The notes under the pieces: generated by a model | Told to the model about the DNA's origin: nothing | The model's input: only the letters and a program-made list of their open reading frames with translations | Databases searched by the model: none | NCBI RefSeq assembly: GCF_013520865.1 | Contig: NZ_JACDXJ010000003.1 | Span: forward strand, 192,002 to 256,001 | DNA: 64,000 nucleotides | Direction: 5' to 3' | Source of the DNA: Microvirga mediterraneensis | GTDB lineage: Bacteria; Pseudomonadota; Alphaproteobacteria; Rhizobiales; Beijerinckiaceae | Program-made: the position numbers and the translations under genes | Part shown: one piece after another, positions 12,665 to 54,768 of the stretch | Layout of the letters: each line of letters begins with the position of its first letter | How positions within the stretch are numbered: the stretch's first letter is position 1

Positions 12665-14563
12665 TTACGACCTTTCAGCGCTTACGACGGCGCGGTCCGG
12701 GGACCGATGGCGCTCGACCTCAACGTTGGTTTCCCCCGCTTTAGGGAATGAGCTTGCGACAAGTTCCTGCAACTCACCCTCGTCCAAAGTTTCCTTCTCC
12801 AGCAGGCGCCGGGCCGTCCGCTCCAGGACATCCCGCCTCTCCCGCAGGAGCGCGACAGTCTGCTCGAACACCTGGTCCACAATGGCCCGCACCTCGTCGT
12901 CAATCGCAGCCGCGGTCTCATCCGAGTAGGAGCGTTCGCGTGCGCCATTGCCGAGCGGGTTCGGGCTCAGGAATGATCGCTCATCCTTTTCCAGGGCAAC
13001 ATTCCCGAGCTTTTCCGACATGCCATAGCGGGTCACCATCGAGCGGGCGATGTCAGTCACACGCACCAGGTCATCCGACGCGCCGGTGGAGAGATGGTTG
13101 AAGACGATCAGCTCGGCGGCGCGCCCGCCGAGCAGCACCGCCATCTTGTTCTCCAGCTCCTCGCGGGTCATCAGGAAGCGATCTTCGGTGGGCCGCTGGA
13201 TCGTGTAGCCCAGCGCCCCGACGCCGCGCGGGATGATCGACACCTTGTGCACCGGGTCCACGCCGGGGAGCGCCAGGGCGACGAGCGCATGGCCCATTTC
13301 ATGGTACGCCACCACCTCGCGCTCCTTCGGGTTCAGGAGCCGGTTGCGTTTCTCCAACCCGGCGACGATGCGCTCGATGGCGTTGTTGAAGTCCGCCATG
13401 GTCACGGCGTCCGCTCCGCGCCGGGTGGCCAAGAGCGCGGCCTCGTTCACGAGGTTGGCCAGATCCGCACCTGTGAAGCCAGGGGTGAGCGCCGCCACCT
13501 TTTCGGCATCCACATCCGGGGCCAGCTTCGCCTTGCGCATGTGCACCTGGAGGATTTGGATGCGGCCCTTCTTGTCGGGCCGGTCCACCAGCACCTGGCG
13601 GTCGAAGCGCCCGGCGCGCAGCAGCGCCGGGTCCAGGATCTCGGGCCGGTTGGTGGCGCCGAGCAGCACCAGGCCGGTGCGGGAGTCGAAGCCATCGAGT
13701 TCGACAAGAAGCTGGTTGAGCGTTTGCTCCTTCTCGTCATGGCCTCCGGCCAGGCCGCCCATGCCGCGGGCGCGGCCAAGGGCGTCGAGCTCGTCGATGA
13801 AGATGATGGCCGGCGCCTTTTCGCGGGCCTGCTGGAACAGGTCGCGCACACGCGCGGCACCGACGCCGACGAACATCTCGACGAACTCCGAGCCGGAGAT
13901 GGAGAAGAACGGCACCTTCGCTTCGCCGGCCACCGCCTTGGCGAGCAGCGTCTTGCCGGTGCCCGGCGGGCCGACCAGGAGCACGCCCTTCGGCATGCGC
14001 CCGCCAAGCCGGCCGTACTGCTCCGGGTTTCTGAGGAACTCGACGACCTCCCGCAACTCGTCCTTGGCCTCATCGACACCGGCCACGTCCTCGAAGCGTA
14101 CGCCGGTGTCGGCTTCGACATAGACCTTGGCCTTGCTCTTGCCGATCTGCATCAGGCCTCCGCCAAGGCCGCCCGCCCCAGCCATGCGGCGCATGAGGAA
14201 GGCCCAAATCCCGAAGAAGATCAGGACAGGCAGAACCCAGGAGAGGATGTCGCGGAACAGCGTGCTTTCGATCTGTCCAGTATAGGTGACGCCGTATTGC
14301 TGCAGCTCTTGGGCAAAGTCCGGGTCAACGCGGGTCGTCGCGAACCGCGTCTGGCCGCCAGGCAGAGGCTCCTTCAGCCGCCCCTGGATGAAGCGGTCGG
14401 AGATGCCGATCTCGGCCACCTTGCCGCCCCGGAGCAGCTCCTGGAACTGGCTGTAGGGAATAGGCGCGATCTGCTGGGCCGTGCTGAAGACGTACTGGAT
14501 CAGCAGGATGCCCAGGATGGCGGCGATCCAGTACCAGGTGTTGAACTGCTTGCTCTTGTCCAT
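12665..14563 (-). CDS. ftsH: ATP-dependent zinc metalloprotease FtsH
   Basis: Membrane-anchored AAA+ protease that extracts and degrades damaged membrane and cytosolic proteins. The start is taken at MDKSKQF (14563) because GGGGA lies 6 bases upstream; a GTG start at 14590 would add nine residues. Two N-terminal membrane helices ([34 protein letters not shown]) flank the periplasmic part. Then come Walker A GPPGTGKT (about residue 200), Walker B IIFIDE, the [22 protein letters not shown] and the zinc site HEMGH (about residue 421). The 632-residue length is normal. HEMGH instead of the commoner HEAGH suggests an accessory paralog rather than the housekeeping copy. FtsH is a core member of stress-tolerance islands. 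Confidence 0.95.
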
Positions 14564-14895
14564 CGAGGTTCCCCACAGCGGCTCGACCACCAGGACGAGC
14601 CCTCAGACCGGGTCAACGTGAGGCAGCAATCCTGGTTCGATCAGAGCCATGGCGGTGGTACCTTACTGGCCAATCACATCCATTGGTCGTGTTCGATTGT
14701 TCTTCTTCTCTCCATCCGAAACAGACGGGGTGGTCGTAGATAATTGTGCGACGTCGGGTGGACAGCTTCATTGGATGGCTATCCGGAGCCCTGGCCCAAA
14801 TTGCCAACGCCGGTCCCTTCCATCATCCTGCAAGGGACCGACCGGATGGCTGGCCATCATGGTTAAAGGTCCGACAGGACCGTAGGGAGCTAGGG
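14564..14895. other. Divergent promoter region between ftsH and the thioesterase gene
   Basis: About 330 bases with no gene. It must contain the promoters of both divergent genes. No clear sigma-32 or ECF consensus was recognised by eye. Confidence 0.4.
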
Positions 14896-15282
14896 ATGAC
14901 GTCAGAAGAGATGCATGCGCGTTTGCCCGTCATCCGAACAATTGCCATGCCCTCGGACACCAACCCTGCTGGAGACATCTTCGGCGGTTGGCTGATGTCG
15001 CAGATGGACCTTGCCGCCGGCAATGCGGCTGCACGGCGCGCTCGGGGACGCTGCGTAACCGTTGCAGTGGATGGAATGGTATTTCACACTCCAGTGCATG
15101 TCGGTGACGAGGTCTCAGTTTACGCCGACCTGATTTCCACGGGCCGCACCTCCATGAAGTTCCAGGTTGAAGCTTGGCGCCGCTCCCGTGATGGCGACGA
15201 ACAGATCAAGGTGACGGAAGCGGTCTTCACGTTTGTCGCCATCGACAGTGGCTCCCGCCCTCGCCCACTGCCCCCGAGTTGA
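14896..15282 (+). CDS. Acyl-CoA thioesterase, YciA-like hotdog fold
   Basis: A 128-residue single-hotdog thioesterase that hydrolyses acyl-CoA esters. The family signature DTNPAGDIFGGWLMSQMD (residues 20-37) contains the catalytic aspartate. It is followed by GRCVTVAVDGMVFHTPVHVGD and the VTEAVFTFVAID C-terminal strand. The start at 14896 is favoured by GGGAG 7 bases upstream; the frame is open further upstream but that part is not family-like. It is a stand-alone gene divergent from ftsH. Confidence 0.9.
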   Translation: MTSEEMHARLPVIRTIAMPSDTNPAGDIFGGWLMSQMDLAAGNAAARRARGRCVTVAVDGMVFHTPVHVGDEVSVYADLISTGRTSMKFQVEAWRRSRDGDEQIKVTEAVFTFVAIDSGSRPRPLPPS

Positions 15283-15661
15283 GCCCAGTACGATTGATCC
15301 TTACGGAATTCACCCCTCTGAGGAGCGAACAGAGGGCGAAGATTTTCGCTCACCTTATGACTGGGGTCAGGCGGCCTAGGCGGTCGGGTTCTGAGCTGAG
15401 GCTTGCTAATTGACCGCAAACTGAGCACCGACGACGCCGTTCTCCCTCAGGGTTCGCGACCCTCCCTGGAGGCGGGAACGTGTTGTGGCGGCAGAGTCAG
15501 GTGATGGCGGCCATCCACCATGCAAAGCTACCCGATAGCCGAGCTTATCGGCAATCAGCCGCCGAGATCGACATTCTCGGCATCCCGGACGCCTCTGCTT
15601 AATGTGCAATTTTGCAAACAAAGCATTCCCTCAGAAGAACGGTTCGATCTTCACATACGCT

Positions 15662-15954: not shown

Positions 15955-15955
15955 A

Positions 15956-16177: not shown

Positions 16178-16554
16178 CGCCTTGGCCTGCTCGCATCCGT
16201 CGGCTTGAACCAGGGGCTGAACTTGAGACGCGATGGCTGACCCTCACCCGAGCCAGCTTTGCTCATCGGCTCCCGAATCGATTCATCAAAGTTCCAAGCG
16301 AATTACTGGTGCACGGTGTTGGATCTGAATTTGAGCGCACGCCGACGACCAAGTTGCACATACAATGCTGGAGTTCCGCCACGAGCACCTTCGTGCTGCG
16401 GCTGCCGACCCTAAAGGTACCAGCGATGCGCTGAACACGGCCATCAACACCCAGGACGGGCAGATCATGTCGTCGGTCTAACACATCTTCTTATCCAGTG
16501 ATCTTCCTCTGCCCCCGCGCGTTCTTCGGTGCACGGTGGTCGGGAGATGCGGTC

Positions 16555-18333
16555 ATGGCCGAGCGGCTGTTGTTCGAGATGCTGGTGATTGTGGTGGCGT
16601 CGTTCGCTGTGGTGACGACCCTGGTTCGCCTCCGCTTCTCGCCTGTCACTGGTTACCTGCTCGCCGGCGTTCTGATCGGGCCGCATGGGCTGGGGCTCCT
16701 GCCCGCGACGGAGGGAGTGCGGTTTCTCGGCGAGCTCGGGGTCGTGCTCCTGATGTTTATCATCGGGCTGGAATTCTCCCTGCCACGCATGTTGGCGGCG
16801 CGCTCGCTCGTATTCGGCATGGGCAGCCTGCAGGTTGCTCTCACGACACTGGCTGGTGGCATCCTGGCGTGGGTGGCGGGCCTCGGCTGGGGCGCCGGCG
16901 TTCTGATTGGCGGGGCCATTGCCATGTCGTCCACGGCCATCGCGGCCAAGCAGCTCTCGGACCAGGAGGAGCTGAACACCCAACACGGACGCCTGGCTCT
17001 GGGCATTCTCCTGTTCCAGGATCTCGCCACGCTGCCGTTCCTCATCCTCACCGACGCCTTGAGCGGGCGCGGCGAGGCAAGTCCTGCCTTGGCGGCAGGC
17101 CGGGCTGTTCTTGCGGTGGTCATCTTTCTGGCCATTGCCCTGCTGGCGCGACGCACCTTGGCTCGGTTCTTCGAGATGCTGGCGCGCACCCGTTCGAACG
17201 AGGTCTTCCTGCTCGGCGTCCTCTCGCTCGTCCTGCTGTCCGCCTTCGGGGCCGAGGAGGTTGGGTTGTCCCTGCCGATAGGGGCCTTCCTGGTCGGCAT
17301 GATCATCGGCGAGAGCGACTTCCGGCATCAGGTCGAGGACGAGATCCGCCCGTTCCGGGACGTGCTCCTAGGTCTGTTCTTCATCACGGTGGGCATGGCC
17401 GTCGATCCGCGGACGATCCTCACCCATCCGCTCTCCGTCATCGTCGCCCTGGCAGCCCTTGTTGGTTTGAAGGCGGCCATCGTGTTTGGCGCGGCCCGGG
17501 CCGCCGGCTGGACGGCACCCGCGGCGTTCCGGGGCGGCGTGGTGTTGGCGCATGGCGGCGAGTTCGCCCTTCTGTTGATGACGCAGGCGCTCGCGATTGG
17601 GCTTTTACCGGCGGGGACAGGCCAAGTGGTTCTGGTCACCGTCGTGCTCAGCATGGCGCTGGCCCCGCTTCTGATCCAATGGAATGGGCGCTTGGCCCGC
17701 GGGGTCGGCCTTGGTTCGCCGCAGGCCTTGCCCCACCCGGACGAAGCCGCCCTGGCGGAAGTCGGCGACACCCTGTCCGGGCATGTCATCCTGTGCGGAT
17801 GCGGACGGGTCGGATGCTTGGTCGCCAGGGTACTGGACATCGGCGGCATCCCATATGTTGCCGTCGAGCATGACATGGATCGATTGAGGAAGGCACGCGC
17901 GCAGGGGCATCACGTCGTCTTCGGGGACGCAACCCGGCCCGTCATACTCCGCGCCGCAGGCTTCGACCGGGCCAAGGCCGTGGTGGCCACGTTGGACAGC
18001 CCGTCCGCCTTGGAGCGGCTGGTCCACCGGGTCCGGCACCTGAACCATGCGCTGCCAGTCATCGTCAGCACCACCGACACGACATCAGTGCGAAGGCTGC
18101 TGGAGGTCGGCGCGACCCACGCCCTGCCGGAGAACCTTGCCGCCGGGCTCGGCCTCGCCGAGCACCTGCTCCGGGCTCTTGGAATGCCGCCGCAGGATGT
18201 CGAAGACCGCATCAACCAAGTTCGGACCCTTCTCAGCCCCGCCCCGGTGGACAATGCCGGCCTGAACGTCGCTTCCCGCCCAAAAGATGAGACACTCAGC
18301 GAGGTGCGTTCGGGCCTGCCGGAAAATTCATGA
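16555..18333 (+). CDS. kefB: Monovalent cation:proton antiporter, KefB/CPA2 family with TrkA-N domain
   Basis: Inner-membrane K+/H+ antiporter. The start at 16555 (MAERLLFEML) has GGGAG 7 bases upstream. Residues 1-380 form the CPA2 transporter with about 12 membrane helices, including RFSPVTGYLLAGVLIGPHGLG and the GGAIAMSSTAIAAKQL core. Residues about 405-520 are a Rossmann RCK/TrkA-N domain (VILCGCGRVGCLVARVLD). The 592-residue length matches YbaL/KefB proteins. KefB-type antiporters protect against electrophiles and acidify the cytoplasm on demand. A kefB is one of the standard genes of the transmissible stress-tolerance locus. It is monocistronic here. Confidence 0.92.
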   Translation: MAERLLFEMLVIVVASFAVVTTLVRLRFSPVTGYLLAGVLIGPHGLGLLPATEGVRFLGELGVVLLMFIIGLEFSLPRMLAARSLVFGMGSLQVALTTLAGGILAWVAGLGWGAGVLIGGAIAMSSTAIAAKQLSDQEELNTQHGRLALGILLFQDLATLPFLILTDALSGRGEASPALAAGRAVLAVVIFLAIALLARRTLARFFEMLARTRSNEVFLLGVLSLVLLSAFGAEEVGLSLPIGAFLVGMIIGESDFRHQVEDEIRPFRDVLLGLFFITVGMAVDPRTILTHPLSVIVALAALVGLKAAIVFGAARAAGWTAPAAFRGGVVLAHGGEFALLLMTQALAIGLLPAGTGQVVLVTVVLSMALAPLLIQWNGRLARGVGLGSPQALPHPDEAALAEVGDTLSGHVILCGCGRVGCLVARVLDIGGIPYVAVEHDMDRLRKARAQGHHVVFGDATRPVILRAAGFDRAKAVVATLDSPSALERLVHRVRHLNHALPVIVSTTDTTSVRRLLEVGATHALPENLAAGLGLAEHLLRALGMPPQDVEDRINQVRTLLSPAPVDNAGLNVASRPKDETLSEVRSGLPENS

Positions 18334-18931: not shown

Positions 18932-19056
18932 GGTTCCAGACGACAGCCATTTGGTCTGTCGAGCCGTTGAGAGGCAGCGAGGGATCGCTGATTTGCGGAC
19001 CAACTTTGGTGAGCCCGTGATACGTGGGCTCGCCTCTACGGCAATGGACGGCGCCC

Positions 19057-19875
19057 ATGGCGTTCAAGGATGTTCTTGTCCTGCTTGATGAGAGATCCAA
19101 CCAAGCCAAGCAGTATGCAGCTTTGCTCGCCACTGCGTTCGACGCGCATGTCACGGCTGCCGCTTTGGCTCCGGATCCAGGGACAAGCGGTGGCTTCCTC
19201 GATGACGGCGCCGCGTTCCTCATACCCGCCCTCGAGGAAGCGAGACACGCAATCCTTCAGATGTTGGAAGAGTTCGCAACCTCTTTCCGACGTTCCGGAG
19301 CCAGAGTGGAAACGGAGGTGTTCACCGAGGCATCTGGTACGGCCGATCGCGCGCTCGGTCCGCTGGCCCGCAACTTCGACTTGATCGTTGCCGAGCAGCC
19401 CGACCCCGACCTCCCCGACGAGAGGCGAAGCATGATCGAGGCCGTCCTGTTCGCCTCCGGGCGCCCCGTGCTTGTGGTCCCTTCCAAGGAGGGCGTCTTG
19501 GGCAAACTGGAAAACGTGCTGGTTGCCTGGGACGGGAGCGCGACGGCCGCAAGGGCTGTGGGCGACGCCATTCCGTTCCTTGCACGCGCCCGGCGGGTTG
19601 AGCTCGTCACAGCGGTTGATGCCGTCGACAAAACCGCCGGATCCAGTCCGCGGATTGTTCGTCATTTGGCCCGCCATGGGGTAGAGGCAGCGTTTCACAG
19701 GCTTCCGATCGCGGATGATGTTGCGAGCACCCTTCTCTCGCATGCCTCTCACGCCGCGGCTGACCTGATGGTGATGGGCGGCTATGGGCATTCTCGCTTG
19801 CGCGAACGGATGCTTGGCGGAGCCACCCGAGGCGTTCTTGAAGCGATGACGTTGCCGGTATTGATGGCGCATTGA
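19057..19875 (+). CDS. Universal stress protein, tandem UspA domains (copy 1)
   Basis: A 272-residue protein with two UspA-like folds. The first half starts MAFKDVLVLLDERSNQAKQY. The second begins near residue 150 with LENVLVAWDGSATAARAVGDA and ends with the ATP-binding-type loop LMVMGGYGHSRLRERMLGGATRGVLE. The start at 19057 was chosen because homology begins there, although the ribosome site is weak. Usp proteins bind nucleotide and help survival under stress by unclear means. A second similar gene follows 256 bases later. Confidence 0.9.
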   Translation: MAFKDVLVLLDERSNQAKQYAALLATAFDAHVTAAALAPDPGTSGGFLDDGAAFLIPALEEARHAILQMLEEFATSFRRSGARVETEVFTEASGTADRALGPLARNFDLIVAEQPDPDLPDERRSMIEAVLFASGRPVLVVPSKEGVLGKLENVLVAWDGSATAARAVGDAIPFLARARRVELVTAVDAVDKTAGSSPRIVRHLARHGVEAAFHRLPIADDVASTLLSHASHAAADLMVMGGYGHSRLRERMLGGATRGVLEAMTLPVLMAH

Positions 19876-19905
19876 AGCGCGACAGGAACTAGGACCTACG
19901 TCATG

Positions 19906-19943
19906 GCAGCCCCACGGGCCCGCCTTCAGGCACATGGGGCTGC
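19906..19943 (+). terminator. Long inverted repeat after the first usp gene
   Basis: GCAGCCCCA (19906-19914) and TGGGGCTGC (19935-19943) are perfect arms around a 20-base GC-rich loop, 30 bases after the stop. No U-tract follows, so termination is uncertain. The stretch 19876-20131 has no gene. Confidence 0.4.
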
Positions 19944-20131
19944 GATCGGGTGCCCCTCTGCCATAGACCCGAGAAGGTAGCAATAGGGCTAATGCGGGAG
20001 GCGGAAATGGCCGCCGGCACTCCGAACCTCGTTGAGCAGTCGTGCCGGCAGCTCCGAGGGGCGTGTCGATGGGAACTGATGAAGCGATACAATCATAATC
20101 ATATACCGACACGATGGGAGGGGACGCTCCA

Positions 20132-20950
20132 ATGGCCATCAAAGACATCGTCGTTGTGCTCGACACCAGTTCCAGGACAGTGGGCCCGTATGCGACTTCG
20201 CTGGCGGCCCTGTTTAAGGCGCACCTTACCGCCACTATGCTCGTGCACGACCCGATCACGAGCGTCACCTGGCCGGAAGCATCCATCCCCCTGCTGACAT
20301 CGGTGATTGAAGCCACACGGGAGGAGGCGCGTCAGACCCTTGAGGCGTTCGCCACAACGAGCCGGGCGCTCGGCATTACGGCCGAGACGGAGGTCATCGA
20401 GGTCACGCTTGGCTTGCCAGGCCGAGCGCTTGGTCCTCTGGCACGCCGCTTCGATCTTGCGGTGATCGAACAGCCGAACCCGGACGCACAAAACGACCGG
20501 GAGATCATGGCGGAATCGGTTCTGTTCGAGTCCGGCCGGCCTGCCCTGATTGTCCCATATGTGGCGCTCACGCCGTTCCGGCTCGAGACAGTGTTGATCG
20601 CCTGGGACGGCAGCGCCACGGCGGCACGTGCGCTTGGCGATGCGATGCCGTTTCTGGCCCGAGCCAAACAGGTCGAGATTCTCACGGTCGCTGACGAGCC
20701 GAGCGAGGCTGAAGCCTCCGGCCAGCAGATGGTCCGCCACCTGGAGCGCCACGGCGTCGCTGCGCAGTTCCGCGGGCTTCCTAGGGCCGGCGGTATTGCG
20801 AGCACGCTGCTGTCGCACGCGTTTGACGCACAAGCCGATCTGATGGTGATGGGAGGCTATGGGCACTCCCGCATGCGCGAATTCATCCTGGGCGGGGCCA
20901 CTCGTGAGGTGCTCGAGACCATGACCCTGCCGGTACTGATGTCACATTGA
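20132..20950 (+). CDS. Universal stress protein, tandem UspA domains (copy 2)
   Basis: Also 272 residues and collinear with copy 1: MAIKDIVVVLDTSSRTVGPY at the start, LETVLIAWDGSATAARALGDAM at mid-protein, and LMVMGGYGHSRMREFILGGATREVLE at the end. The second UspA domain is nearly the same as in copy 1 while the first has drifted, so the pair arose by an older tandem duplication. GGGAGGGGA lies 9 bases before the ATG at 20132. A separate promoter is likely because of the intervening hairpin. Confidence 0.92.
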   Translation: MAIKDIVVVLDTSSRTVGPYATSLAALFKAHLTATMLVHDPITSVTWPEASIPLLTSVIEATREEARQTLEAFATTSRALGITAETEVIEVTLGLPGRALGPLARRFDLAVIEQPNPDAQNDREIMAESVLFESGRPALIVPYVALTPFRLETVLIAWDGSATAARALGDAMPFLARAKQVEILTVADEPSEAEASGQQMVRHLERHGVAAQFRGLPRAGGIASTLLSHAFDAQADLMVMGGYGHSRMREFILGGATREVLETMTLPVLMSH

Positions 20951-21043: not shown

Positions 21044-21120
21044 GCCACTCGCCTTAGACCGTCTTCTTGGAGCCGATCGCTCAGGTTTTGCGATTTCCGC
21101 GTTCCACAGGGGAGAAGCCT

Positions 21121-22485
21121 ATGACGGATGTCACCCGTAGCCCCTCGCGTGAGGTGCGTGCCGACCGGCAGCCAACCAGGATTCCCTTGTTCCTGTTCGC
21201 GACCGGCATCGAGAACAGCTATCCCACCATCCAGAACGGCCGGGTGCGCCGCGACCAGATGGAGGAGTGCGGCCATTATTTCTTCAGGGAGCGGGATTTC
21301 GACCTCCTCGACGAGCTCGGTATCCGCTTCCTGCGCTATGGCCCGCCCTTGTACCAGACCTTCCTCGGCCAGGGCCGGTACGCTTGGGAGTTCACCGACC
21401 TGACGTTCGCCCGGCTGAAGGAGCGCGACATCGTTCCCATCGTCGACCTGTGCCATTTCGGTGTGCCGGACTGGATCGGCAACTTCCAGAACCCCGATTT
21501 CCCAGCGCTGTTTGCGGAATACGCCGGCGCCTTCGCGCGCCGCTTCCCGTGGGTCCAGCTCTACACCCCCGTCAACGAGATGTTCATCTGCGCCACGTTC
21601 TCGGCGGCGACCGGGTACTGGAACGAGCAGCTGAAAAGCGACCATGGCTTCGTCACCGCCCTCAAGCACCTCGTCAAGGCGAACGTGCTGGCCATGCACG
21701 CCATCCTGGAGGAGCGGCCCGACGCGATCTTCATCCAGAGCGAGTCGACCGAGTATTTCCACGCCGAACACCCGCAGGCGATCAAGCCCGCGGAGATCCA
21801 GAACGCCCGGCGGTTCCTCTCGCTCGACCTGAACTACGGCCGCCCGGTCAATTCGGAGATGCACGAGTTCCTGCTCGATAACGGCATGACGCGGGAGGAA
21901 TACCACTTCTTTCTCGACAACACCCTGCGCCACCACTGCATCATGGGCAACGACTTCTACCACACCAACGAGCACCGGGTGGACCCCGGCGGGCAGATCC
22001 GGCCCGCCGGCGAGGTGTTCGGCTATGACGAGATCACGCGCCAGTACCACGACCGCTATGGCCTGCCGGTCATGCACACCGAGACCAACTTCGACCAGGG
22101 CCCGGAGGGAGACGAGGCGGTCGACTGGCTGTGGAAGCAGTGGGCCAACGTCCTACGCGGGCGCAACAACCGTGTGCCCATCGTCGGCTTCACATGGTAC
22201 TCGCTCACCGACCAGATCGACTGGGACGTCGCTCTTCGCGAGCAGCGGGGCCGGGTGAACCCGCGCGGGCTGTACGACCTCGCCCGCAACGTCCGGCCCG
22301 TCGGGGAAGCCTACAAGAAACTTCTGTCCCAGTGGCGCGAGGTGTTGCCGACGCAGAGCGTCTGCCTGTTCGTGCCGGTGGTGTTGCCGAGCGAGTACGA
22401 CGAACCCATGGCGGTGCGACGGCGCGAGGGATGGCGTCGATACCTCCGCCACGAAATGAGGGCAAAGCCCAAGGTCAGGAATTAG
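21121..22485 (+). CDS. Glycoside hydrolase family 1-like protein
   Basis: A 454-residue (beta/alpha)8-barrel protein related to beta-glucosidases. The acid/base region reads YTPVNEMFICATF (about residue 152) in place of the classical TFNEP, and the nucleophile region reads VMHTETNFDQGPEG (about 318) in place of I/VTENG. HHCIMGNDFYHTNEH and IVGFTWYSLTDQIDWD (about 360) match GH1 features. The start at 21121 has GGGGAG 7 bases upstream. The altered motifs put it in a divergent GH1 branch whose substrate I cannot name. Its presence among stress genes suggests trehalose- or compatible-solute-like substrates, but that is a guess. Confidence 0.75.
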   Translation: MTDVTRSPSREVRADRQPTRIPLFLFATGIENSYPTIQNGRVRRDQMEECGHYFFRERDFDLLDELGIRFLRYGPPLYQTFLGQGRYAWEFTDLTFARLKERDIVPIVDLCHFGVPDWIGNFQNPDFPALFAEYAGAFARRFPWVQLYTPVNEMFICATFSAATGYWNEQLKSDHGFVTALKHLVKANVLAMHAILEERPDAIFIQSESTEYFHAEHPQAIKPAEIQNARRFLSLDLNYGRPVNSEMHEFLLDNGMTREEYHFFLDNTLRHHCIMGNDFYHTNEHRVDPGGQIRPAGEVFGYDEITRQYHDRYGLPVMHTETNFDQGPEGDEAVDWLWKQWANVLRGRNNRVPIVGFTWYSLTDQIDWDVALREQRGRVNPRGLYDLARNVRPVGEAYKKLLSQWREVLPTQSVCLFVPVVLPSEYDEPMAVRRREGWRRYLRHEMRAKPKVRN

Positions 22486-25062: not shown

Positions 25063-25198
25063 GGTGATCTAACGCCGGCCGCCCCGTGCGGTGCCGCGGC
25101 TCGACCAGCCAGAGCGAATTTGAAGCGATCATGAACCAAGGCCAATCCTGGATTGTTAGTTTGATGTTCGACTTGGTTCAAGCGGAACGGGGATGATC

Positions 25199-29482: not shown

Positions 29483-31906
<2,424 letters not shown>

Positions 31907-37404: not shown

Positions 37405-37443
37405 GAACCAAGCATCCATCTTTCAAAGCAAGAGGAACTGATC

Positions 37444-39066: not shown

Positions 39067-40749
<1,683 letters not shown>

Positions 40750-42092: not shown

Positions 42093-42488
42093 ATGAGCCA
42101 AGAAACGGCAGATCAGCCCTGCTGCCTCATCATCGAAGACCAAGCGCTCATTGCTATGTCGATTGAGACCTACCTTGCGGATACCGGCATGGTCGTCCAG
42201 ACAGTGGGCTCTATGGCCGAGGCACGCACCTGGTTAGATGCCGGTATGGCGGACATCGCCATTCTCGATTACATTCTCAAGGACGGCCCTGCCACAGAGC
42301 TGGCAGGGGAGCTGAACCGACGTGAGATTCCCTTCCTCATCTATTCCGGGTACCCGCGCAGGCATGACATGCCCTGTGAACTCCGGGGCGTGCCCTGGCT
42401 TGAAAAGCCGACAAGGCGTGAAGACTTGCTGAAGGCCCTCGTGGCACTAACAGCTAAAGATCTATCTGCCCCTCTTCTCCGTTCCTGA
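42093..42488 (+). CDS. Single-domain response regulator
   Basis: A 131-residue stand-alone receiver. The acidic pocket is in CCLIIEDQALIAMSIE, the phospho-acceptor aspartate in DIAILDYILKDGPA (about residue 55), the switch serine in IPFLIYSGYP (about 90) and the lysine in VPWLEKPTRREDLL (about 105). No output domain. It could serve an HWE kinase such as the one at 62358, whose partners are often single-domain receivers. It is flanked by two Crp/Fnr fragments. Confidence 0.9.
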   Translation: MSQETADQPCCLIIEDQALIAMSIETYLADTGMVVQTVGSMAEARTWLDAGMADIAILDYILKDGPATELAGELNRREIPFLIYSGYPRRHDMPCELRGVPWLEKPTRREDLLKALVALTAKDLSAPLLRS

Positions 42489-45626: not shown

Positions 45627-45901
45627 TGGCATCTCCTGGACTTTGAGCCAACACCAGGGTGATCGTTCCACGGGAAGGAATTTCCTTCCGGCGGGGTCCG
45701 GCGTTCTTCGAGCTTGTCGATTAGGAGGAGAGTCCTGTCATGGTCCTCGAGCGCCTCAAAACGCCGCCGGACCGCGCCGGCGAGCTGGTCGACTAGCATG
45801 TCGCGGCTTCTGACGCTGCCGTTCGGCAAGGCACGGAGGATGGCGCCGCACGGGTCGGCAACGTCGGCATGGTCGCTCGTGCTCAGCTGCCAAAGCTCCA
45901 T
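45623..45901 (-). pseudogene. Hemerythrin-domain protein fragment
   Basis: From the ATG at 45901 the frame reads MELWQLSTSDHADVADPCG and ILRALPNGSVRSRDMLVDQL, nearly matching the first 75 residues of the hemerythrin protein at 61323. Seven residues are deleted after RRRFEA (EEESLFD is missing, with two iron ligands). It loses similarity after LIDKLEERR, and runs into the sigma factor start. Clearly a dead paralog. Confidence 0.8.
45673..45689. promoter_or_regulatory. 17-base palindrome upstream of the sigma factor gene
   Basis: GGAAGGAA-T-TTCCTTCC is perfectly symmetric and lies 47-63 bases upstream of the sigma factor start codon. Position and symmetry suit an operator for autoregulation or for a dimeric regulator. 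Confidence 0.45.
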
Positions 45902-46180: not shown

Positions 46181-47164
46181 GTGGTAGCGCTTCTCGTGCT
46201 CGACCTCGGCGTCCTGCACTGGGAGGCGCGCGCCATCGGTGTCGGGGAGGCCCTGTGGCTGAGCCTCGGCTACCTCGTCCTCGCTCTCCTGTTTGCCGGC
46301 GGGGTGTACTGGTTCCTCGGCGGGCAGGCTAGCGTCGAGTTCCTGACCGGCTACTTCATCGAGAAGTCGCTCTCCATCGACAACATCTTCGTCTTCGTCC
46401 TGATCTTCTCCAACTTCGGGGTTCCCGCCGCCTACCAGCACCGGGTGCTGTTCTGGGGCGTGCTCGGCGCTCTGGCGCTCCGCGCCGTGCTCGTCTTCGT
46501 CGGCGTTCAGCTCCTCCATGCGTTCGCCTGGATGACGCTTGTTTTCGGCGCCTTTCTGGTCATCACCGGGATCCGAATGCTGTTCGCGGCCGAGGGGACG
46601 CCGGACCTCCACAACAACACGGTCCTCAAGCTTCTCCGCCGTTTGCCGGTCACCGAGGACTACGAAGGAGCCACCTTTCTGGTCCGGCGCGACGGCGCGC
46701 TCTATGTGACGCCGCTGTTCCTCGTGCTGGTGATGGTCGAGTTCACCGACTTGGTGTTCGCGGTCGACCCCATCCCGGCGATCCTGGCGATCACGCAGGA
46801 CCCGTTCATCGTCTACACATCCAATGTGATGGCGATCCTCGGGCTGCGGGCGCTCTACTTCGCGCTCGCCGGGATCGTGAAGCGGTTCGTTTATCTTAAA
46901 TACGCGCTGTCGCTCATCCTCGTGCTGGTCGGCGCCAAGATGACGGTCAATCATCTCTACGGCGGCAAGGTCATTCCTACAGAGGCCGCGCTGCTCGTCA
47001 CGGCCATCCTGATTGGCGGCGCAATCGCCCTATCTCTCTTGCGCACGCGCGCGCAAGCCCGAAGACGAGGTCAGGCTGCCCACTGGCTGGGTGCCGGGCA
47101 GCAGGTCGCAACCCAGAGCCACGCCGGCGGCCGATCTGTCCGGCAGGCCCGAAAAACAGGGTGA
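46181..47164 (+). CDS. TerC/Alx-family membrane protein
   Basis: A 327-residue protein with about eight to nine membrane helices and the family acidic motifs: FLTGYFIEKSLSIDNIFVFV (about residues 55-74) and LVMVEFTDLVFAVDPIPAIL (about 181-200). TerC/Alx proteins export Mn2+ and are linked to tellurite and pH stress. The GTG start at 46181 leaves a shorter first helix than usual, and an in-frame stop lies 24 bases upstream, so the N-terminus may be slightly truncated. The C-terminus (about 40 residues, Arg/Gln-rich) is not conserved. Confidence 0.9.
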   Translation: MVALLVLDLGVLHWEARAIGVGEALWLSLGYLVLALLFAGGVYWFLGGQASVEFLTGYFIEKSLSIDNIFVFVLIFSNFGVPAAYQHRVLFWGVLGALALRAVLVFVGVQLLHAFAWMTLVFGAFLVITGIRMLFAAEGTPDLHNNTVLKLLRRLPVTEDYEGATFLVRRDGALYVTPLFLVLVMVEFTDLVFAVDPIPAILAITQDPFIVYTSNVMAILGLRALYFALAGIVKRFVYLKYALSLILVLVGAKMTVNHLYGGKVIPTEAALLVTAILIGGAIALSLLRTRAQARRRGQAAHWLGAGQQVATQSHAGGRSVRQARKTG

Positions 47165-48621: not shown

Positions 48622-49401
48622 TCACGCGAAGGCGACGTCCAGGATCATCATGGTCGGAAGCCCCAGCATAAAGCCGCCTGTTGCAAGTCTCTCGTGCCCA
48701 CGTCGATGGGTTTCGGGAATGATCTCATGGCTGATGACGAACAGCATCGCACCAGCCGAGAAACCCATCCCCCAGGGCAGAATCGGCCCGGCAAAGGTAA
48801 CGGCAGTCACGCCCAAAAGCCCGCCGAGAGGTTCGACGAGGCCGGTTCCAAGCGCAAGGGCTACAGATGCCAGCCGCGAATAGCCCAAGGTCAGCAGTGA
48901 TCCTGCCACGGCCAGTCCCTCGGGCAGGTTTTGAGTTCTGATCGCGATGGCGAGCGAGGCAGCCTGGGCCATATCGTTCCCGCCGAAGCCGACGCCGACC
49001 GCGAGCCCCTCAGGCACGTTGTGGAGCGTAATCGCGATGACAAACAGCCAGACGCGCTTGAGATCGGCAGTTGACCGGCCCTGACGCCCATGAATGAAGT
49101 GCTCGTGCGGTGCGTACCATTCAATCAGTCCGATCACCACCGCGCCCGCGAGAAGCGCTGCCGCAACGCTTGCGACAGGGGCGACTTGTCCCTCGATCTG
49201 GGCGCGGGCGGCATCAAGCCCGGGCAGGAGCAGCGAGAAGAACGCAGCCGCTGTCATCACGCCAGCCGCGAAGCCGAGCATAGCGTCCTCGGTTCTCGGG
49301 GAGATGCGCTTGACCAGCAGCAGAGGCAGGGCCCCGAGCCCGGTAGCGGCGCCGGCAGCCGCGCTGGCACCAACAGCAATGAGAACGTTCGAGGCCATCA
49401 T
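48622..49401 (-). CDS. ZIP-family metal transporter
   Basis: A 259-residue transporter with about eight membrane helices and the paired ZIP metal sites: ITLHNVPEGLAVGVGFGGND (helix IV, about 135-154) and IRTQNLPEGLAVAGSLL (helix V, about 164-180; N takes the place of the usual first H). The histidine-bearing loop HEHFIHGRQGRS lies between helices III and IV, and SHEIIPETHRRGHE lies near the end. It imports Zn, Fe or related ions. The start at the ATG pair 49401/49398 is favoured, since the longer frame to 49461 adds non-family sequence. Confidence 0.9.
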   Translation of the reverse strand: MMASNVLIAVGASAAAGAATGLGALPLLLVKRISPRTEDAMLGFAAGVMTAAAFFSLLLPGLDAARAQIEGQVAPVASVAAALLAGAVVIGLIEWYAPHEHFIHGRQGRSTADLKRVWLFVIAITLHNVPEGLAVGVGFGGNDMAQAASLAIAIRTQNLPEGLAVAGSLLTLGYSRLASVALALGTGLVEPLGGLLGVTAVTFAGPILPWGMGFSAGAMLFVISHEIIPETHRRGHERLATGGFMLGLPTMMILDVAFA

Positions 49402-49574
49402 CACATCACCGAGCTCATGGTCAGAACTAACAAACGCTGCGACCACCACGTATGGATTCACCGGATCCCGGCGTGTCTTGCGAAATCACAGAGGCATCAA
49501 AGTTGCCCGACGAGGCTACCAGATGTGTAGGGAAACTTCAGATGGGGTTCATGGGAAGCGGGGCGGCAGATCGA

Positions 49575-50009
49575 TCAATAGGTCAGGACATCCGGAGCAC
49601 GCCGACTGCTCGGGTCATAAAGAGCCCCATATGTCCTCCCGAGCACAACGCCGAAAAGCAGGTGAAGCGCAAGGGAACCTATGTTGATCGGAGCATACGC
49701 ACTCGGCTCGACGTACCAAGCCCCAGCTAAGCCCACGCACCAAATGATGGCTCCAAACAGTGCACCCTTGCCCCAAGAGGGACCAGGGAGGATAGGGCTT
49801 AAAAGCGCAAACAACATGCCCCAGAGAAATGTTCCCACCCCGAAGTGGATGACCCAACTCAACCCGATGGGCTGAATGACAATTCCATTGGTGATGAGGA
49901 GCGGGTCCGGCTCAGGGAAGACGCCGACCGTCCAACCAAGCACGATGACCGCGGACACGACACCTGCGGCAACAAGCCCTGAGATTGTGCCTCTGCCGAG
50001 ATCAATCAT
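49575..50009 (-). CDS. Four-helix membrane protein (DUF6789-like)
   Basis: A 144-residue membrane protein with GGAGGAG 4 bases before the ATG at 50009. Helices: ISGLVAAGVVSAVIVLGWTV, LSWVIHFGVGTFLWGMLFAL, GKGALFGAIIWCVGLAGAWY and LALHLLFGVVLGRTYGALYD. The pattern resembles small proteins grouped under DUF6789, which is a tentative match from memory. No function known. Confidence 0.7.
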   Translation of the reverse strand: MIDLGRGTISGLVAAGVVSAVIVLGWTVGVFPEPDPLLITNGIVIQPIGLSWVIHFGVGTFLWGMLFALLSPILPGPSWGKGALFGAIIWCVGLAGAWYVEPSAYAPINIGSLALHLLFGVVLGRTYGALYDPSSRRAPDVLTY

Positions 50010-50216
50010 CACTCCTCCTTCCGGCAACGCTGAAGTTCGTCCGATCCCAATATGATCCGACACCTAATGGATGGATGGTGGCAGCCGTCCCGTCGCGCCT
50101 GTAACGACAGCAAGGTCCTCCAAGCAGGGCCACGGAAATCTGCTGGTCGGCTGCAGCCGAGCGAAACGTACTTGGAGCTTGTTCGTGATGTGACGTTCGG
50201 CTTGGATGCATGGGTC

Positions 50217-51107
50217 TCACCAGGAGCTCTGGCGCGAGCGCGCAGCTCGCTCGCGCCCCTGAGTGGTGATTTCAACAATACGGCCACGTCCGGTCTCTTC
50301 GGGTCTGAACACGCGCACCAAGCCTTGGCGTTCAAGGGCCGCCACGAGCGAGTAGGTTGTCCCAAGAGGAAGCTGCAGGCGCGACGAGATATCCTGAACG
50401 GGCGTGCGCGTGCGTCGTGCGACATCCCTCAACACATCGGGGCCATGGATCCGGACAGCTCGCCCCCCGCGACTGAAGAGGCCCGAGAGCCGGTTCGTCA
50501 CCGGCAGGCGGGACAGGAGACGCTGCGCTGGACGAGCCGCGGGGAGCCTCTGCAAGGAGCCGCTGCGCCACGCTATGAATGCGAGCGCTCCGGCAGCTGC
50601 GCTGGCAAGCGCCCCCACCATCAGGCCGGATGGGAGATCGCCTAAGGCGCCATGCCGTCTCTTGCGAAACTCCTCGATCTTCTCCTCCGCGAATACATGG
50701 CGTATCGCTCGGATCGCTTCCGGGTTCAGGACCTCGCGTGCCAACGGCTGCAGCTCGTGCTGCTCCCGATGAAAATGGCGATCAAGCAGGTAGGTGAAAT
50801 CCTCGAACTGCTGGGTCCATTCTCGGCTGCTCTTGTCACCGATCCGGGAAAGGTGCCTGAGCTGCTTCTTAATCTGCTTGTGCTCATCTTCGAGCTCATC
50901 GATCAGGCGCTTCGCCCGCTTATCATCCTCGAGAGCGTCATAGAGGCTGTCCTCCTCAGCCTCGATATGTCGCCGGAGCTCGCCGTCGAGTTCATCGAAC
51001 AGTCGGTCGCGGCTCCTGACACCAGCGCCCGGGATCGCGCGGAGGATATCCTTATGAAGGCTCACGATATTGGCATGATCGTTCGCGATCAGGTGCCAGA
51101 ACTCCAT
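50217..51107 (-). CDS. Hemerythrin - membrane helix - winged-helix fusion protein
   Basis: A 296-residue protein starting at 51107 (GAGGAG 7 bases upstream). Residues 1-155 form a hemerythrin-like four-helix bundle, with candidate di-iron ligands H11, H47, E51, H76, H111/H113 and E115. Residues about 159-180 are a hydrophobic glycine/alanine-rich membrane segment (GLMVGALASAAAGALAFIAW). Residues about 215-290 form a winged-helix domain (ISSRLQLPLGTTYSLVAALE, then GLVRVFRPEETGRGRIVEIT) like MarR/IclR-type readers. This would be a membrane-tethered sensor of oxygen, NO or redox state that binds DNA. The paralog at 61323 lacks the winged helix. Confidence 0.82.
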   Translation of the reverse strand: MEFWHLIANDHANIVSLHKDILRAIPGAGVRSRDRLFDELDGELRRHIEAEEDSLYDALEDDKRAKRLIDELEDEHKQIKKQLRHLSRIGDKSSREWTQQFEDFTYLLDRHFHREQHELQPLAREVLNPEAIRAIRHVFAEEKIEEFRKRRHGALGDLPSGLMVGALASAAAGALAFIAWRSGSLQRLPAARPAQRLLSRLPVTNRLSGLFSRGGRAVRIHGPDVLRDVARRTRTPVQDISSRLQLPLGTTYSLVAALERQGLVRVFRPEETGRGRIVEITTQGRERAARSRQSSW

Positions 51108-51251
51108 TGCGTCGCTCCTCGGTCTGAAGGCGAGGATCAACGGAAGGATGCGAGCCCCGGTTCCGGCCTCGAAACTGGCTATCTCGAGTGGATGAACCTT
51201 TTACCCGGCCGGGACTTGATCCCGTCGATGGCAGACGGGACATGGTGAGCC

Positions 51252-52043
51252 ATGATCATTCGGTGTTACCTGCTCGCGTCTTCGCTGGCACGGTTGATCC
51301 ATCGGGAGCGCGGGACGGCCCGCGTGGTGGAAGGATCCTTCCGCACGCGGTCGGGCCAGATTCTGAGCGTGCAGGTGGAGAATGACGTTGGTCGTCTTGA
51401 TCTGGTTCATGGCGTAGCCCAGCCATGGCCGAGAGTGAACCGCAGCCCGGTGCCGCCCGGGCACGCGGACGCGCTCCTGGATGTGGCTGAGGGAAGGATC
51501 GCCTACGAGCGCTCGCGGATGGTCGTCGCCGGACGCGAGATCCTGATTGACAGGGTTGGAACCGCGTCGGAGCCGGGTCGTATCGTCATCGAGTTCGACA
51601 ATGAGGATCAGGCCGGACACTTTGCTCCGCCGCAATGGTTCGGACCTGAGATCACCCCGATGGACCGCACTTCTGCGGCCGAGGGGATCCGAGTGGACGA
51701 CGATGAACTCATCTCAGATGCGGCGCTTAATGATCTGCTGGATGTCTTGGAGGGCTTTGAAGGCTTAGGGCCAGGACGTTCCTCCGCGCCGGCGTCCGAC
51801 CGAATCAGCCGTCCCGATTCCCCGAGAGATGCCGTTTCCGATGAGATCCACAGGAAGGCAACAGATGGATCTGCGGACGTTCGAGCCGCTCCTGCAACGA
51901 TCACGGCTACGCTGCGAGAGGCTTCGTCAGCGCAAGTCGTCTTCAAGGAAGGGGCGCAGAGCACGCAGGTTCAGATCAACGCAATCCGGGTCCGGGAGAC
52001 CGCGATCCTACTCCAGGAGGGAGAGGAGGAACCGGATGCCTGA
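51252..52043 (+). CDS. CYTH-like domain protein
   Basis: A 263-residue protein. Residues about 1-130 look like a CYTH (adenylate-cyclase/thiamine-triphosphatase) fold: MIIRCYLLASSLARLIHRERG, ERSRMVVAGREILIDRVG and IVIEFDNEDQAGHFAPPQW, ending FGPEIT. The usual N-terminal ExExK motif is not seen, so catalysis is doubtful. Residues 150-263 are acidic, Ser/Arg/Asp-rich and unrecognised. It lies 62 bases before degP on the same strand and may be part of its operon. Confidence 0.6.
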   Translation: MIIRCYLLASSLARLIHRERGTARVVEGSFRTRSGQILSVQVENDVGRLDLVHGVAQPWPRVNRSPVPPGHADALLDVAEGRIAYERSRMVVAGREILIDRVGTASEPGRIVIEFDNEDQAGHFAPPQWFGPEITPMDRTSAAEGIRVDDDELISDAALNDLLDVLEGFEGLGPGRSSAPASDRISRPDSPRDAVSDEIHRKATDGSADVRAAPATITATLREASSAQVVFKEGAQSTQVQINAIRVRETAILLQEGEEEPDA

Positions 52044-52105
52044 CACGGCATTCACTCCGAGCCTTCAACGCCGATGCAGGCCAACCCGACCGCCACGAGG
52101 TTTCC

Positions 52106-53539
<1,434 letters not shown>

Positions 53540-53565
53540 TCCATCTCTGAAAGGAGGATACGAGA

Positions 53566-54174
53566 ATGGCCCGCAATCCCCTCACACCCTCCCGCACCGG
53601 GTTTGGCTTGCTGGGCGGGAACGATCCCTTCCTGTCGCTTCACCGCGAAATGAACCGCCTGTTCGACGACGTGCTGCGCGGTACGGGGTTGCCTGCCGCC
53701 GGAGGGCAAAGCCAAGGCGGTGTCGGCAACTTCGTCAACGCCAGCATGAATGTGTCGGAAACCGAGAACGAGATCCGCATCACCGCGGAACTGCCCGGCG
53801 TCACCGAACAGGACATCGATGTGAGCCTCGACGACGACGTGCTCACCATCCGGGGCGAGAAGAAGTTCGAGCAGAAGAACGAAAAGGAGAACTTCCATTT
53901 CGTCGAGCGCTCCTACGGCACCTTCCAACGCTCCGTGCGCCTGCCCTTCCCGATCAACCCGGAACAGGTGCAGGCGCACTTCGAGAACGGGGTGCTCACC
54001 GTGACCCTGCCGAAGACGGCCCAGCAGGAGCGCTCCCGCCGCATTCAGGTTCAGGCCCGCGGGGCCGGAGGCCAGAGCGCCCAAGGTGGGCATGGCCCCA
54101 CAGAAGGCGGGAGCGGTCAGGGTGGACAGGGTGGCGGAACGCCGGACAACACCCCGGGCGGCGCCAGCACCTGA
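53566..54174 (+). CDS. Hsp20/alpha-crystallin small heat-shock protein (copy 2)
   Basis: A 202-residue holder chaperone, 26 bases after degP with an AAGGAGGA site. Same N-terminal arm and alpha-crystallin domain as the copy at 37444, but the strand motif is the canonical GVLTVTLPK. The tail differs (Gly/Gln-rich, ending in TPGGAST). It shares a 500-base block with copy 1 that differs at only two bases. This is presumably the functional version. Confidence 0.95.
   Translation: MARNPLTPSRTGFGLLGGNDPFLSLHREMNRLFDDVLRGTGLPAAGGQSQGGVGNFVNASMNVSETENEIRITAELPGVTEQDIDVSLDDDVLTIRGEKKFEQKNEKENFHFVERSYGTFQRSVRLPFPINPEQVQAHFENGVLTVTLPKTAQQERSRRIQVQARGAGGQSAQGGHGPTEGGSGQGGQGGGTPDNTPGGAST
53587..54086 (+). 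repeat. 500-bp duplication shared with 37465-37964 (copy B)
   Basis: Offset 16122 from copy A. The two differences are at 53998 and 54004 (A here, C in copy A). Confidence 0.95.
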
Positions 54175-54192
54175 GCAGACGGACCGCGCATT

Positions 54193-54768
54193 ATGCAACC
54201 ATCTGAAGAGGGGGATCACCCCAGCACCAACGGGACCGATCCCCGCTCGCCGATGGGCACCGGCCGGGCCGCCGCGGCCGTGGACCACGCCCTGCGCGAA
54301 ACCCGTGAGGCGTGGCCGGGCCTGAGCACCTACGAGCGCTTCGAGCAGGTCGTCTCGCTCGTCCTGACCGGCCTGATCAGCCTTGTGATCGCGGCGGCGC
54401 TCGTGAACCTGACGTTCCGCATCCTCATGTTGGTGCTGTTCGGGCTGCTCGACCCGGCCGAGACCGGCGTGTTCCAGGCGATCTTCGGCATGATCTTCAC
54501 CGTGCTGATCGCCCTGGAGTTCAACCACTCGATCATCGGCGTCCTGCACCGCAAGGAAAGCATCGTGCAGGTGCGCACGGTGGTGCTGATCGCCTTGTTG
54601 GCGCTCGTGCGCAAGTTCATCATCCTGGACGCGACCAAGACCGAGCCGCTCACCATCATCGGCTTGGCCGCGGCCATCCTGGCGCTGGGCTCAGTGCACT
54701 GGCTTGTGCGCGACCAGGACCGGAAGGACGCCGCGGTTAGGGAGCATGAAGGCACAGCGGCAGAATAA
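54193..54768 (+). CDS. psiE: PsiE-family phosphate-starvation-inducible membrane protein
   Basis: A 191-residue protein with four membrane helices in residues about 55-170 (VSLVLTGLISLVIAAALVNL; FGMIFTVLIALEFNHSIIGV; VVLIALLALVRKFIILDAT; IIGLAAAILALGSVHWLV). The EFNHSI and RKESIVQVRTVVLIALLALV segments are the PsiE signature. The role is unknown, but a psiE gene is part of the stress-tolerance locus next to kefB and degP. Here it directly follows degP and hsp20 (18-base gap). Confidence 0.9.
   Translation: MQPSEEGDHPSTNGTDPRSPMGTGRAAAAVDHALRETREAWPGLSTYERFEQVVSLVLTGLISLVIAAALVNLTFRILMLVLFGLLDPAETGVFQAIFGMIFTVLIALEFNHSIIGVLHRKESIVQVRTVVLIALLALVRKFIILDATKTEPLTIIGLAAAILALGSVHWLVRDQDRKDAAVREHEGTAAE

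Follow-up and report, generated by a model that had tools for sequence, protein, structure and literature searches.

Background

The transmissible locus of stress tolerance (tLST), which confers tolerance of heat, pressure and chlorine, is described in a 2021 review (PMC8290217) as a compact locus of 14–19 kb with more than 80% DNA conservation between hosts, and its origin is there called unknown. Loci resembling it in Alphaproteobacteria were already noted in sections 8 and 11 of that review. Here we describe a stretch of 64,000 nucleotides from Microvirga mediterraneensis (the window; bases 192002–256001, the final 64 kb of the 256,001-bp contig C3), about 42 kb of which carry a ClpK/ClpG-type disaggregase together with FtsH, DegP, PsiE, a KefB antiporter and Hsp20 proteins. 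We conclude that this region is probably a plasmid-borne, modular proteostasis and envelope-stress island of Microvirga that works like the tLST and was assembled separately from it. A description of this island was not recognised in the open-access literature, judging by titles and the beginnings of abstracts.

Core genes and their recurrence

Gene identities were obtained by Pfam and NCBIfam profile scans, with tblastn used for the third Hsp20, YfdX and HdeD. A preliminary description, made from the letters of the window, had placed FtsH, a KefB-type antiporter, a ClpK-type ATPase, three Hsp20 genes, a CRRC thioredoxin-fold protein, DegP and PsiE in one 42-kb stretch, and all of these families are indeed present there. 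The same holds for Lon, GroESL, the rhomboid and Clp-fold proteases, Usp, BI-1, CorA, ZIP, TerC and DedA. The core genes lie as follows:

12665–14590, minus strand: FtsH of the island class, an AAA and M41 protease (TIGR01241, 800 bits)
16498–18333, plus strand: KefB/CPA2 antiporter with a TrkA-N domain (PF00999, PF02254)
27731–28504, plus strand: rhomboid protease, leading a tandem pair (PF01694; GASG and AHIGG motifs)
28508–29344, plus strand: SDH-type Clp-fold membrane protease (PF01972)
29483–31906, minus strand: Lon of the ClpK-linked class (TIGR00763)
31919–32422, minus strand: third Hsp20, upstream of lon (open reading frame with tblastn match at 31922–32206)
33418–33663, plus strand: small conserved gene upstream of clpK (58–78% matches near ClpK)
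33787–36744, plus strand: ClpK/ClpG-type disaggregase, likely start 33874 (NF033606, 1563 bits, cut-off 1900)
36790–37404, plus strand: NDUS4-like protein (PF04800)
37444–38037, plus strand: Hsp20, copy a (PF00011)
38177–38782, plus strand: DUF1269 membrane protein (PF06897)
38779–39066, plus strand: GroES (groES annotated under matching DNA)
39115–40749, plus strand: GroEL (TIGR02348, 857 bits)
40845–41384, plus strand: DsbA/thioredoxin-fold protein with CRRC motif (PF13462)
52106–53539, plus strand: DegP/Do protease of the island class (TIGR02037, 485 bits)
53566–54174, plus strand: Hsp20, copy b (Hsp20-family matches below curated cut-offs)
54193–54768, plus strand: PsiE (PF06146)

The genes degP, hsp20 and psiE are contiguous, as had been stated, with gaps of 26 and 18 bp. 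The active-site motifs of FtsH, Lon, DegP, the rhomboid and the SDH protease appear intact.

Could such a collection have come together by chance, as unrelated housekeeping genes that piled up on a plasmid? When 37 window proteins were compared with 24 control stretches of 20 kb (20 from the chromosome of the same genome and four from M. thermotolerans, G044), only six matches were found in the 480 kb, in five of the 24 stretches, and all of them were to HWE kinase, Crp or aldehyde dehydrogenase, which are large families. The 37 of 37 matches in the window itself hold by construction, and the fair comparison is therefore with other loci: matches were found to 22 of the 37 proteins in G044 (100 kb), to 16 in G011 (60 kb), to 14 in G006 (42 kb), and to 11 each in G046 (60 kb) and a Phenylobacterium plasmid (45 kb). 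ClpK does stand alone at some loci, as a chance assembly would have it; the low density in the controls, the repetition of the neighbourhoods in several species and the difference of the island FtsH, DegP and Lon from the housekeeping copies make this explanation extremely improbable.

Microvirga genomes hold ClpK at 19 places besides the window, 18 of which were examined (17 stretches and plasmid pR24_1 of M. terrae; the fragmentary G015 was left out). Eleven of these have one or more of island FtsH, Lon, PsiE, island DegP, KefB, NDUS4 and Hsp20, and four genomes (G044, G011, G006 and G046) have two or more of FtsH, DegP, PsiE and KefB no farther than 45 kb from ClpK. The preliminary description would have been given up if the closest relatives of clpK, ftsH, degP and psiE had been scattered chromosomal genes without a shared neighbourhood; the neighbourhood is shared.

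Among 48 Microvirga genomes, ClpK was detected in 17, PsiE in 14 and both in 13 (p = 1.5e-7), so that 13 of the 14 genomes with PsiE also have ClpK, and PsiE lies no more than 50 kb from ClpK in 11 of the 13 (the exceptions being G015 and G018). Six genomes, that of the window included, have a Lon with 92% or higher identity to the window's, in all six within 2 kb of ClpK; all 48 genomes also hold Lon at 46–52% identity. The island FtsH (at least 84%) occurs in 15 genomes and the island DegP (at least 63%) in 18, and both are found together in 12 (p = 7e-5). ClpK is independent of either (p = 0.75 for FtsH and 0.76 for DegP, n = 48). Because FtsH and DegP occur together but not with ClpK, the window joins two separately inherited modules, ClpK-Lon-PsiE and FtsH-DegP.

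ClpK and its putative operon

The window ClpK has the domains Clp_N, AAA, AAA_lid_9, AAA_2 and ClpB_D2-small, with an N1 region preceding N2 and the AAA1-M-AAA2 plan. Its N1 region contains CDVC...CDVDY (Cys-x2-Cys...Cys), which aligns with ClpK of the E. coli and alphaproteobacterial tLST. The protein scores below both NCBIfam cut-offs of 1900 bits, with 1563 for the ClpK and 1362 for the ClpG model. Since the N1 domain of ClpG is reported to coordinate zinc and to target aggregates (PMC10641755), the N1 cysteines of the window ClpK would by analogy bind zinc, and if they do the protein should be DnaK-independent.

The hsp20-clpG(clpK) core is present as clpK-NDUS4-hsp20 at 33787–38037, with hsp20 downstream and one gene between; NDUS4 follows clpK in the alphaproteobacterial tLST too. 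From clpK through NDUS4, hsp20, DUF1269, groES and groEL to the thioredoxin-fold gene the gaps are 45, 39, 139, -4, 48 and 95 bp, all on the plus strand. With the same strand and such short gaps a single transcript is plausible, and clpK through the CRRC gene is probably an operon. The small gene at 33418–33663 is matched close to ClpK at several Microvirga loci, and also in G298.

In the ClpK tree the Microvirga clade (support 99) is sister to a clade of alpha- and gammaproteobacterial tLST sequences (81), with 92 for the two together. The window ClpK is thus outside the tLST clade, in a tree from which the Limimaricola, R. phaseoli and NGR234 rows had been dropped. Among the best 120 proteins, sequences nearer than the tLST ClpK come from Methylorubrum, Methylobacterium, Bradyrhizobium, Sphingomonas, Phenylobacterium and others, so this lineage is not specific to the genus. 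It may correspond to the "ClpH" of the 2021 review (PMC8290217). Among the plasmid matches listed, the nearest ClpK is that of M. terrae pR24_1 (92.8%).

Two further ClpK neighbourhoods were observed. At both Pseudomonas loci examined (L009 and L010; at about 9.2 kb) a relative of the CRRC thioredoxin-fold protein (44–45%) lies just upstream of ClpK. On pNGR234b of Sinorhizobium fredii NGR234 (L258, 24594–29998) ClpK was matched in two pieces about 2.6 kb apart, with the rhomboid-SDH protease pair, PsiE, three Hsp20 genes and a Kef gene as neighbours.

Relationship to the tLST

Compact islands on alphaproteobacterial plasmids have psiE and three hsp20 genes facing the run marR-ftsH-clpK-sigma-like-hdeD-hypothetical-NDUS4-rhomboid-Clp-fold protease-trxC-kefB. 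They were found in Agrobacterium (L091, L255), Shinella (L253) and P. yeei (L090), and in parts in Roseomonas (L113, L254), AM1 (L112) and Caulobacter (L114), in a plasmid survey for which 60 of 2295 records were listed and 13 of those plus seven further stretches examined. We call this island tLST because HdeD and TrxC are present and YfdX lies nearby (in P. yeei, AM1 and R. mucosa). Across several orders the majority of its long pieces share 87–95% identity with the Agrobacterium copy L091, which is evidence for a recent spread; the exceptions are two R. mucosa pieces (78–81%), Limimaricola (80–83%) and E. coli (76–78%). Compact copies were seen on plasmids and contigs of several orders (L090, L091, L112, L113, L253, L254, L255, L337 and L338). 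An order-wide search, in which two candidates were scored for each genome, detected ClpK at E≤1e-300 in 12 of 397 genomes; of the 11 genomes other than our own three neighbourhoods were examined, and G331 and G131 have the compact tLST order while G298 does not. No Kef match was found in the G131 stretch.

The window aligns with tLST DNA at 76–78% in ClpK and FtsH and at 67–75% in the rhomboid-protease pair, PsiE and smaller pieces. The gene order differs, and rhomboid and SDH protease are the only neighbours that align in one piece. The window thus stays below the 80% conservation cited above, which is a weak test as the Agrobacterium and E. coli tLST share 76–78% and those of Limimaricola and Agrobacterium 80–83%. 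Nor is the window compact, its core families being scattered among other genes across some 42 kb.

Trees were built quickly, with SH-aLRT supports, and contain long branches; rows with an in-frame stop or less than 60% of the query length were dropped. This left 45 of 52 rows for ClpK (L225 also being dropped), 58 of 65 for FtsH (dropped rows including G012, Limimaricola and one control), 29 of 31 for PsiE, 46 of 51 for DegP, 12 of 22 for NDUS4, seven of nine for the SDH protease and seven of 12 for KefB; the PsiE and DegP trees are without gammaproteobacterial tLST sequences. The island FtsH is 84–93% identical to other Microvirga island FtsH and 48–52% to the housekeeping FtsH. It forms a clade with plasmid FtsH of rhizobia, Bradyrhizobium, Phenylobacterium and Roseomonas (99), which is joined with the tLST FtsH at 80 and is distant from the housekeeping proteins. 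The same plasmid carries one more FtsH (C3:36305–38074), which belongs to a third class (63%). These trees place both ClpK and FtsH as sister lineages to their tLST counterparts. PsiE clusters with sequences of Azospirillum and R. rhododendri (90), whereas the PsiE of the alphaproteobacterial tLST form a separate clade (100); the KefB clade of the window (100) is apart from the tLST KefB clade (81), with long branches, and the SDH protease clade of the window is likewise apart from the tLST copies. For DegP there is thin evidence of a position outside the tLST clades, as the window protein falls outside the two tLST rows in the tree (Agrobacterium and Limimaricola), which do not themselves form one clade.

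It is against this background that a true tLST lineage, which entered or arose here long ago and then broke up and gained genes, has to be weighed. ClpK, FtsH, Hsp20, NDUS4, PsiE, Kef, DegP, rhomboid and Clp-fold protease are shared, ClpK and FtsH join the tLST lineages, and the gene order of the alphaproteobacterial tLST differs from that of E. coli too. It also speaks against our own interpretation that the window and the Agrobacterium tLST (78% in ClpK and FtsH) are as close as the Agrobacterium and E. coli tLST, so that DNA identity alone does not exclude the window from a broad tLST family. We nevertheless consider descent from the tLST unlikely, with KefB, SDH protease and PsiE in separate clades, with ClpK independent of the island FtsH and DegP genome-wide, and with YfdX and HdeD, which make up the cell-envelope module YfdX1/YfdX2/HdeD of the tLST, missing: queries from P. 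yeei, Azospirillum and E. coli gave no tblastn match at E≤1e-3 anywhere on C3, the window included, or on plasmid C2, which bears out what had been noted of the window. Because both the trees (KefB, SDH protease, PsiE, ClpK) and the gene content separate the window from the tLST, the island appears more likely to be a cousin than a derivative.

The kinship that the preliminary description had seen therefore stands for ClpK, FtsH and the recurrent neighbourhood; its view of an "expanded version" of the tLST is not supported by the clades and the independence just named. Likewise, the rhomboid and the Clp-fold protease, listed there as later uptake, are already present in the compact alphaproteobacterial tLST. 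The pair was also considered as proof of tLST descent and rejected, for it occurs in two genomes without a ClpK match as well. An SDH protease at E≤1e-60 was found in six of 101 genomes of the order sample, our own included, and four of the five others have an adjacent rhomboid: in G059 and G131 the pair lies within 3 kb of ClpK, G067 and G090 were not among the ClpK matches, and G083, with the most distant copy, has no adjacent rhomboid.

Second island and recent transfer

The genome has 5.35 Mb in eight contigs. C3 is most likely a repABC-type plasmid because it carries RepC (100303–100803; 157 bits). In a search confined to the MobA_MobL family, a relaxase was found on plasmid C2 only. There are no tRNA genes in the window, ten window open reading frames had no match in a PHROG scan, and inverted repeats in three stretches were weak or widely spaced pairs only.

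Plasmid C2 of the same cell carries a parallel stress set at 113–187 kb (G000:C2:113000–187000), with FtsH, Hsp20, NDUS4, GroESL, MarC, Lon, a ClpB-type protein, BI-1, Usp, a sigma-like gene, BrkB, Crp and HWE kinase. That it is a fresh copy of the window was rejected, the DNA identity being at most 84%. The thioredoxin of this island is 50% identical to that of the E. coli tLST. On the chromosome of M. thermotolerans a C2-like block adjoins a window-like block, and copies of groESL were seen on several Microvirga and Methylobacterium plasmids.

The following putative element was found on one side of the island:

5763–8042: putative insertion element with 24-nt inverted ends

Window positions 49070–57704 are 99.5–99.8% identical to G012:C21:357–8936, at the start of that contig, apart from a 49-nt unmatched gap; G012 has no ClpK match. 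In G012 this block borders on an element that matches the one in the window both in its kind of ends and in its span of 2280 bp, the ends in both being the 24-nt inverted TGCCCCAC...CATGCTCTC (L264, 8937 and 11193). This near-identical block beside matching element ends is good evidence that the degP-hsp20-psiE end has moved recently between species. Similar ends were observed at the 3' end of the short kefB in two alphaproteobacterial tLST (L091, 24483; L253, 24492).

Other genes and regulation

The remaining features of the region are:

19024–20950, plus strand: two universal stress proteins (PF00582 in each)
21067–22485, plus strand: GH1-like protein, recurrent in related islands (PF00232)
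24049–25062, minus strand: CorA Mg2+ transporter (PF01544)
25193–25987, plus strand: BI-1 family membrane protein (PF01027)
42093–42488, plus strand: single-domain response regulator (PF00072)
45015–45671, minus strand: sigma-factor-like protein (PhyR_sigma2 and Sigma70_r4_2, both below cut-off)
46181–47164, plus strand: TerC membrane protein (PF03741)
48622–49461, minus strand: ZIP metal transporter (PF02535)
50217–51140, minus strand: hemerythrin-domain protein (PF01814)
54795–55481, minus strand: DedA/VTT protein (PF09335)
56154–57332, minus strand: BrkB/YihY membrane protein, common to G044, G006 and G012 (PF03631)

The gene at 43599–44645 is a putative isocitrate/isopropylmalate dehydrogenase. 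The GH1-like gene is close to GroESL and TerC on the Phenylobacterium plasmid also, and the sigma-like protein has a 60% copy on plasmid C2. No match to cardiolipin synthase was found in the window.

Hsp20 copies a and b are identical in 489 of their first 495 nucleotides and in 98.8% of 165 residues, and share only 20 of 60 nucleotides immediately upstream; near-identical coding parts beside diverged upstream DNA suggest gene conversion or a recent duplication confined to the coding sequence. Close to where the alpha-crystallin domain ends, copy a (37444–38037) reads GVLPVPLPK and copy b GVLTVTLPK, a change which may weaken the domain in copy a. The third Hsp20 has tblastn similarities with E values of 2e-6 to 5e-11.

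Could the region be a general alphaproteobacterial plasmid stress cluster of the Phenylobacterium type, serving the general stress response or hypoxia, with ClpK as optional cargo? Similar sets without ClpK are indeed found in stretches of Phenylobacterium, Rhizobium Kim5 and Bradyrhizobium plasmids, the C2 island has many of the same families with a ClpB-type protein replacing ClpK, and genes for Crp, HWE kinase and the sigma-like protein lie near the stress genes. EcfG-like sites occur upstream of hemerythrin (two in the window and one each in G006, G011, G012 and G044), upstream of BrkB (in the window, G012 and both other plasmid stretches of our genome) and upstream of the rhomboid (27712–27737 of the window). 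There were 11 distinct sites in about 208 upstream stretches, with about 1.6 expected by chance for 229 stretches (shuffles) and four matches on the opposite strand; those of the window and G012 are near-identical and thus not independent. FNR-type sites were not above chance, however, and ClpK, PsiE and the special Lon form a tight unit in Microvirga, so that a general cluster with dispensable ClpK seems rather doubtful to us.

Several observations weigh against the island of separate assembly that we favour. Seven of the 18 ClpK loci have no core partners (G025, G032, G047, G018, G010, G009:C197 and M. terrae pR24_1), which makes it harder to argue that ClpK depends on partners. The plasmid ClpK loci of Rhizobium phaseoli and Shinella oryzae have none within 15 kb, and around the ClpK of G298 (86%) nothing was matched but the small upstream gene and a kinase. 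KefB of the window type was found in only one other Microvirga genome, G046, adjoining FtsH. FtsH was not detected at E≤1e-150 in eight of 48 genomes, though a housekeeping copy is expected, so not all absences are real; the presence tables rest on a limited number of candidates scored per genome, some neighbourhoods end at contig ends, and the identity thresholds were chosen by ourselves. In addition, the island has no common promoter: EcfG-, FNR- and RpoH-type patterns were not above chance in the window as a whole, no CIRCE site was found there, and footprinting upstream of clpK gave no clear conserved promoter.

Proposed mechanism

For the island of separate assembly that we favour, the following division of labour is proposed. 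The small Hsp20s would hold unfolding proteins, and ClpK would bind aggregates via its own N1 domain and extract chains from them, which GroESL, encoded on the clpK strand and probably within one operon with it, might refold. Lon, FtsH, DegP, the rhomboid and the Clp-fold protease would clear irreparable protein from cytoplasm, membrane and periplasm, and KefB, CorA, ZIP, TerC, PsiE, DedA and BI-1 could maintain ion and membrane balance, the whole presumably providing tolerance to heat and oxidants. At least two modules (ClpK-Lon-PsiE and FtsH-DegP) make up the island and come and go independently of each other, and one end of the island has moved recently between species, beside the end of an insertion element.

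A broader possibility, put forward here tentatively, is that alphaproteobacterial plasmid stress islands are the workshop which yielded the tLST, one and the same machine of holding chaperone, stand-alone disaggregase, membrane proteases, Kef antiporter and PsiE having been assembled more than once from different subfamilies. The Microvirga island would then be an independent sister product, and the tLST the one that was compacted and went on to reach beta- and gammaproteobacteria. In either case parallel islands in Alphaproteobacteria offer points of comparison for telling recurring genes from dispensable ones (YfdX, HdeD), and they indicate which modules merit deletion to learn the contribution of each.

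Comparison with known systems

The tLST on the E. coli plasmid KY416992 (L092) resembles the window in its N1-bearing ClpK, its Hsp20s, an FtsH of a related lineage, a Kef-type antiporter and its location on a plasmid. It differs in that the window lacks YfdX, HdeD and cardiolipin synthase and extends over 42 kb instead of 14–19 kb; the DNA can be aligned only in ClpK and FtsH (76%) and KefB belongs to a different clade. The compact alphaproteobacterial tLST shares ClpK, FtsH, Hsp20, NDUS4, PsiE, the rhomboid-SDH protease pair and Kef with the window, but is compact, has MarR, HdeD and TrxC, and is 77–78% identical in ClpK and FtsH.

The plasmid of Phenylobacterium zucineum HLK1 (L262; PMC2529317) carries Hsp20-lon, FtsH, Hsp20, DegP, a Kef-type antiporter, GroESL, GH1 and TerC as the window does; there is no ClpK or PsiE match in the 45 kb examined, and its antiporter is just 33% identical. 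Rhizobium sp. Kim5 has a like-built plasmid stretch without ClpK. With the ClpG/ClpK disaggregases (PMC10641755, PMC8024975) the window ClpK has the domain plan and the N1 cysteine pattern in common, the difference being its score under both 1900-bit cut-offs.

A large share of these genes recurs in M. thermotolerans HR1 (G044), in which about 54 kb of chromosome hold Lon, GroESL, Hsp20, NDUS4, FtsH, ClpK, DUF1269, TerC, Usp, GH1, DegP, a further Hsp20, PsiE, DedA and BrkB. Its ClpK is 96%, its DegP 90% and its PsiE 92% identical to those of the window; the HR1 island differs in being chromosomal, in being joined to a block resembling that of plasmid C2, and in having no KefB, rhomboid or SDH protease match in the 100 kb examined. 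For this strain a growth range of 15–50 C is given in PMC7022394, where heat-shock genes are named, four of their six tags lying between HR2563 and HR2592, and thermotolerance is put down to heat-shock and DNA-repair genes generally; that text makes no mention of the terms Clp, GroE, chaperone or genomic island. The tags from HR2563 to HR2592 would fall in the island. The link to thermotolerance is a correlation in one strain, HR1. For Microvirga the island is a concrete candidate for the thermotolerance which PMC7022394 ascribed to such genes in general.

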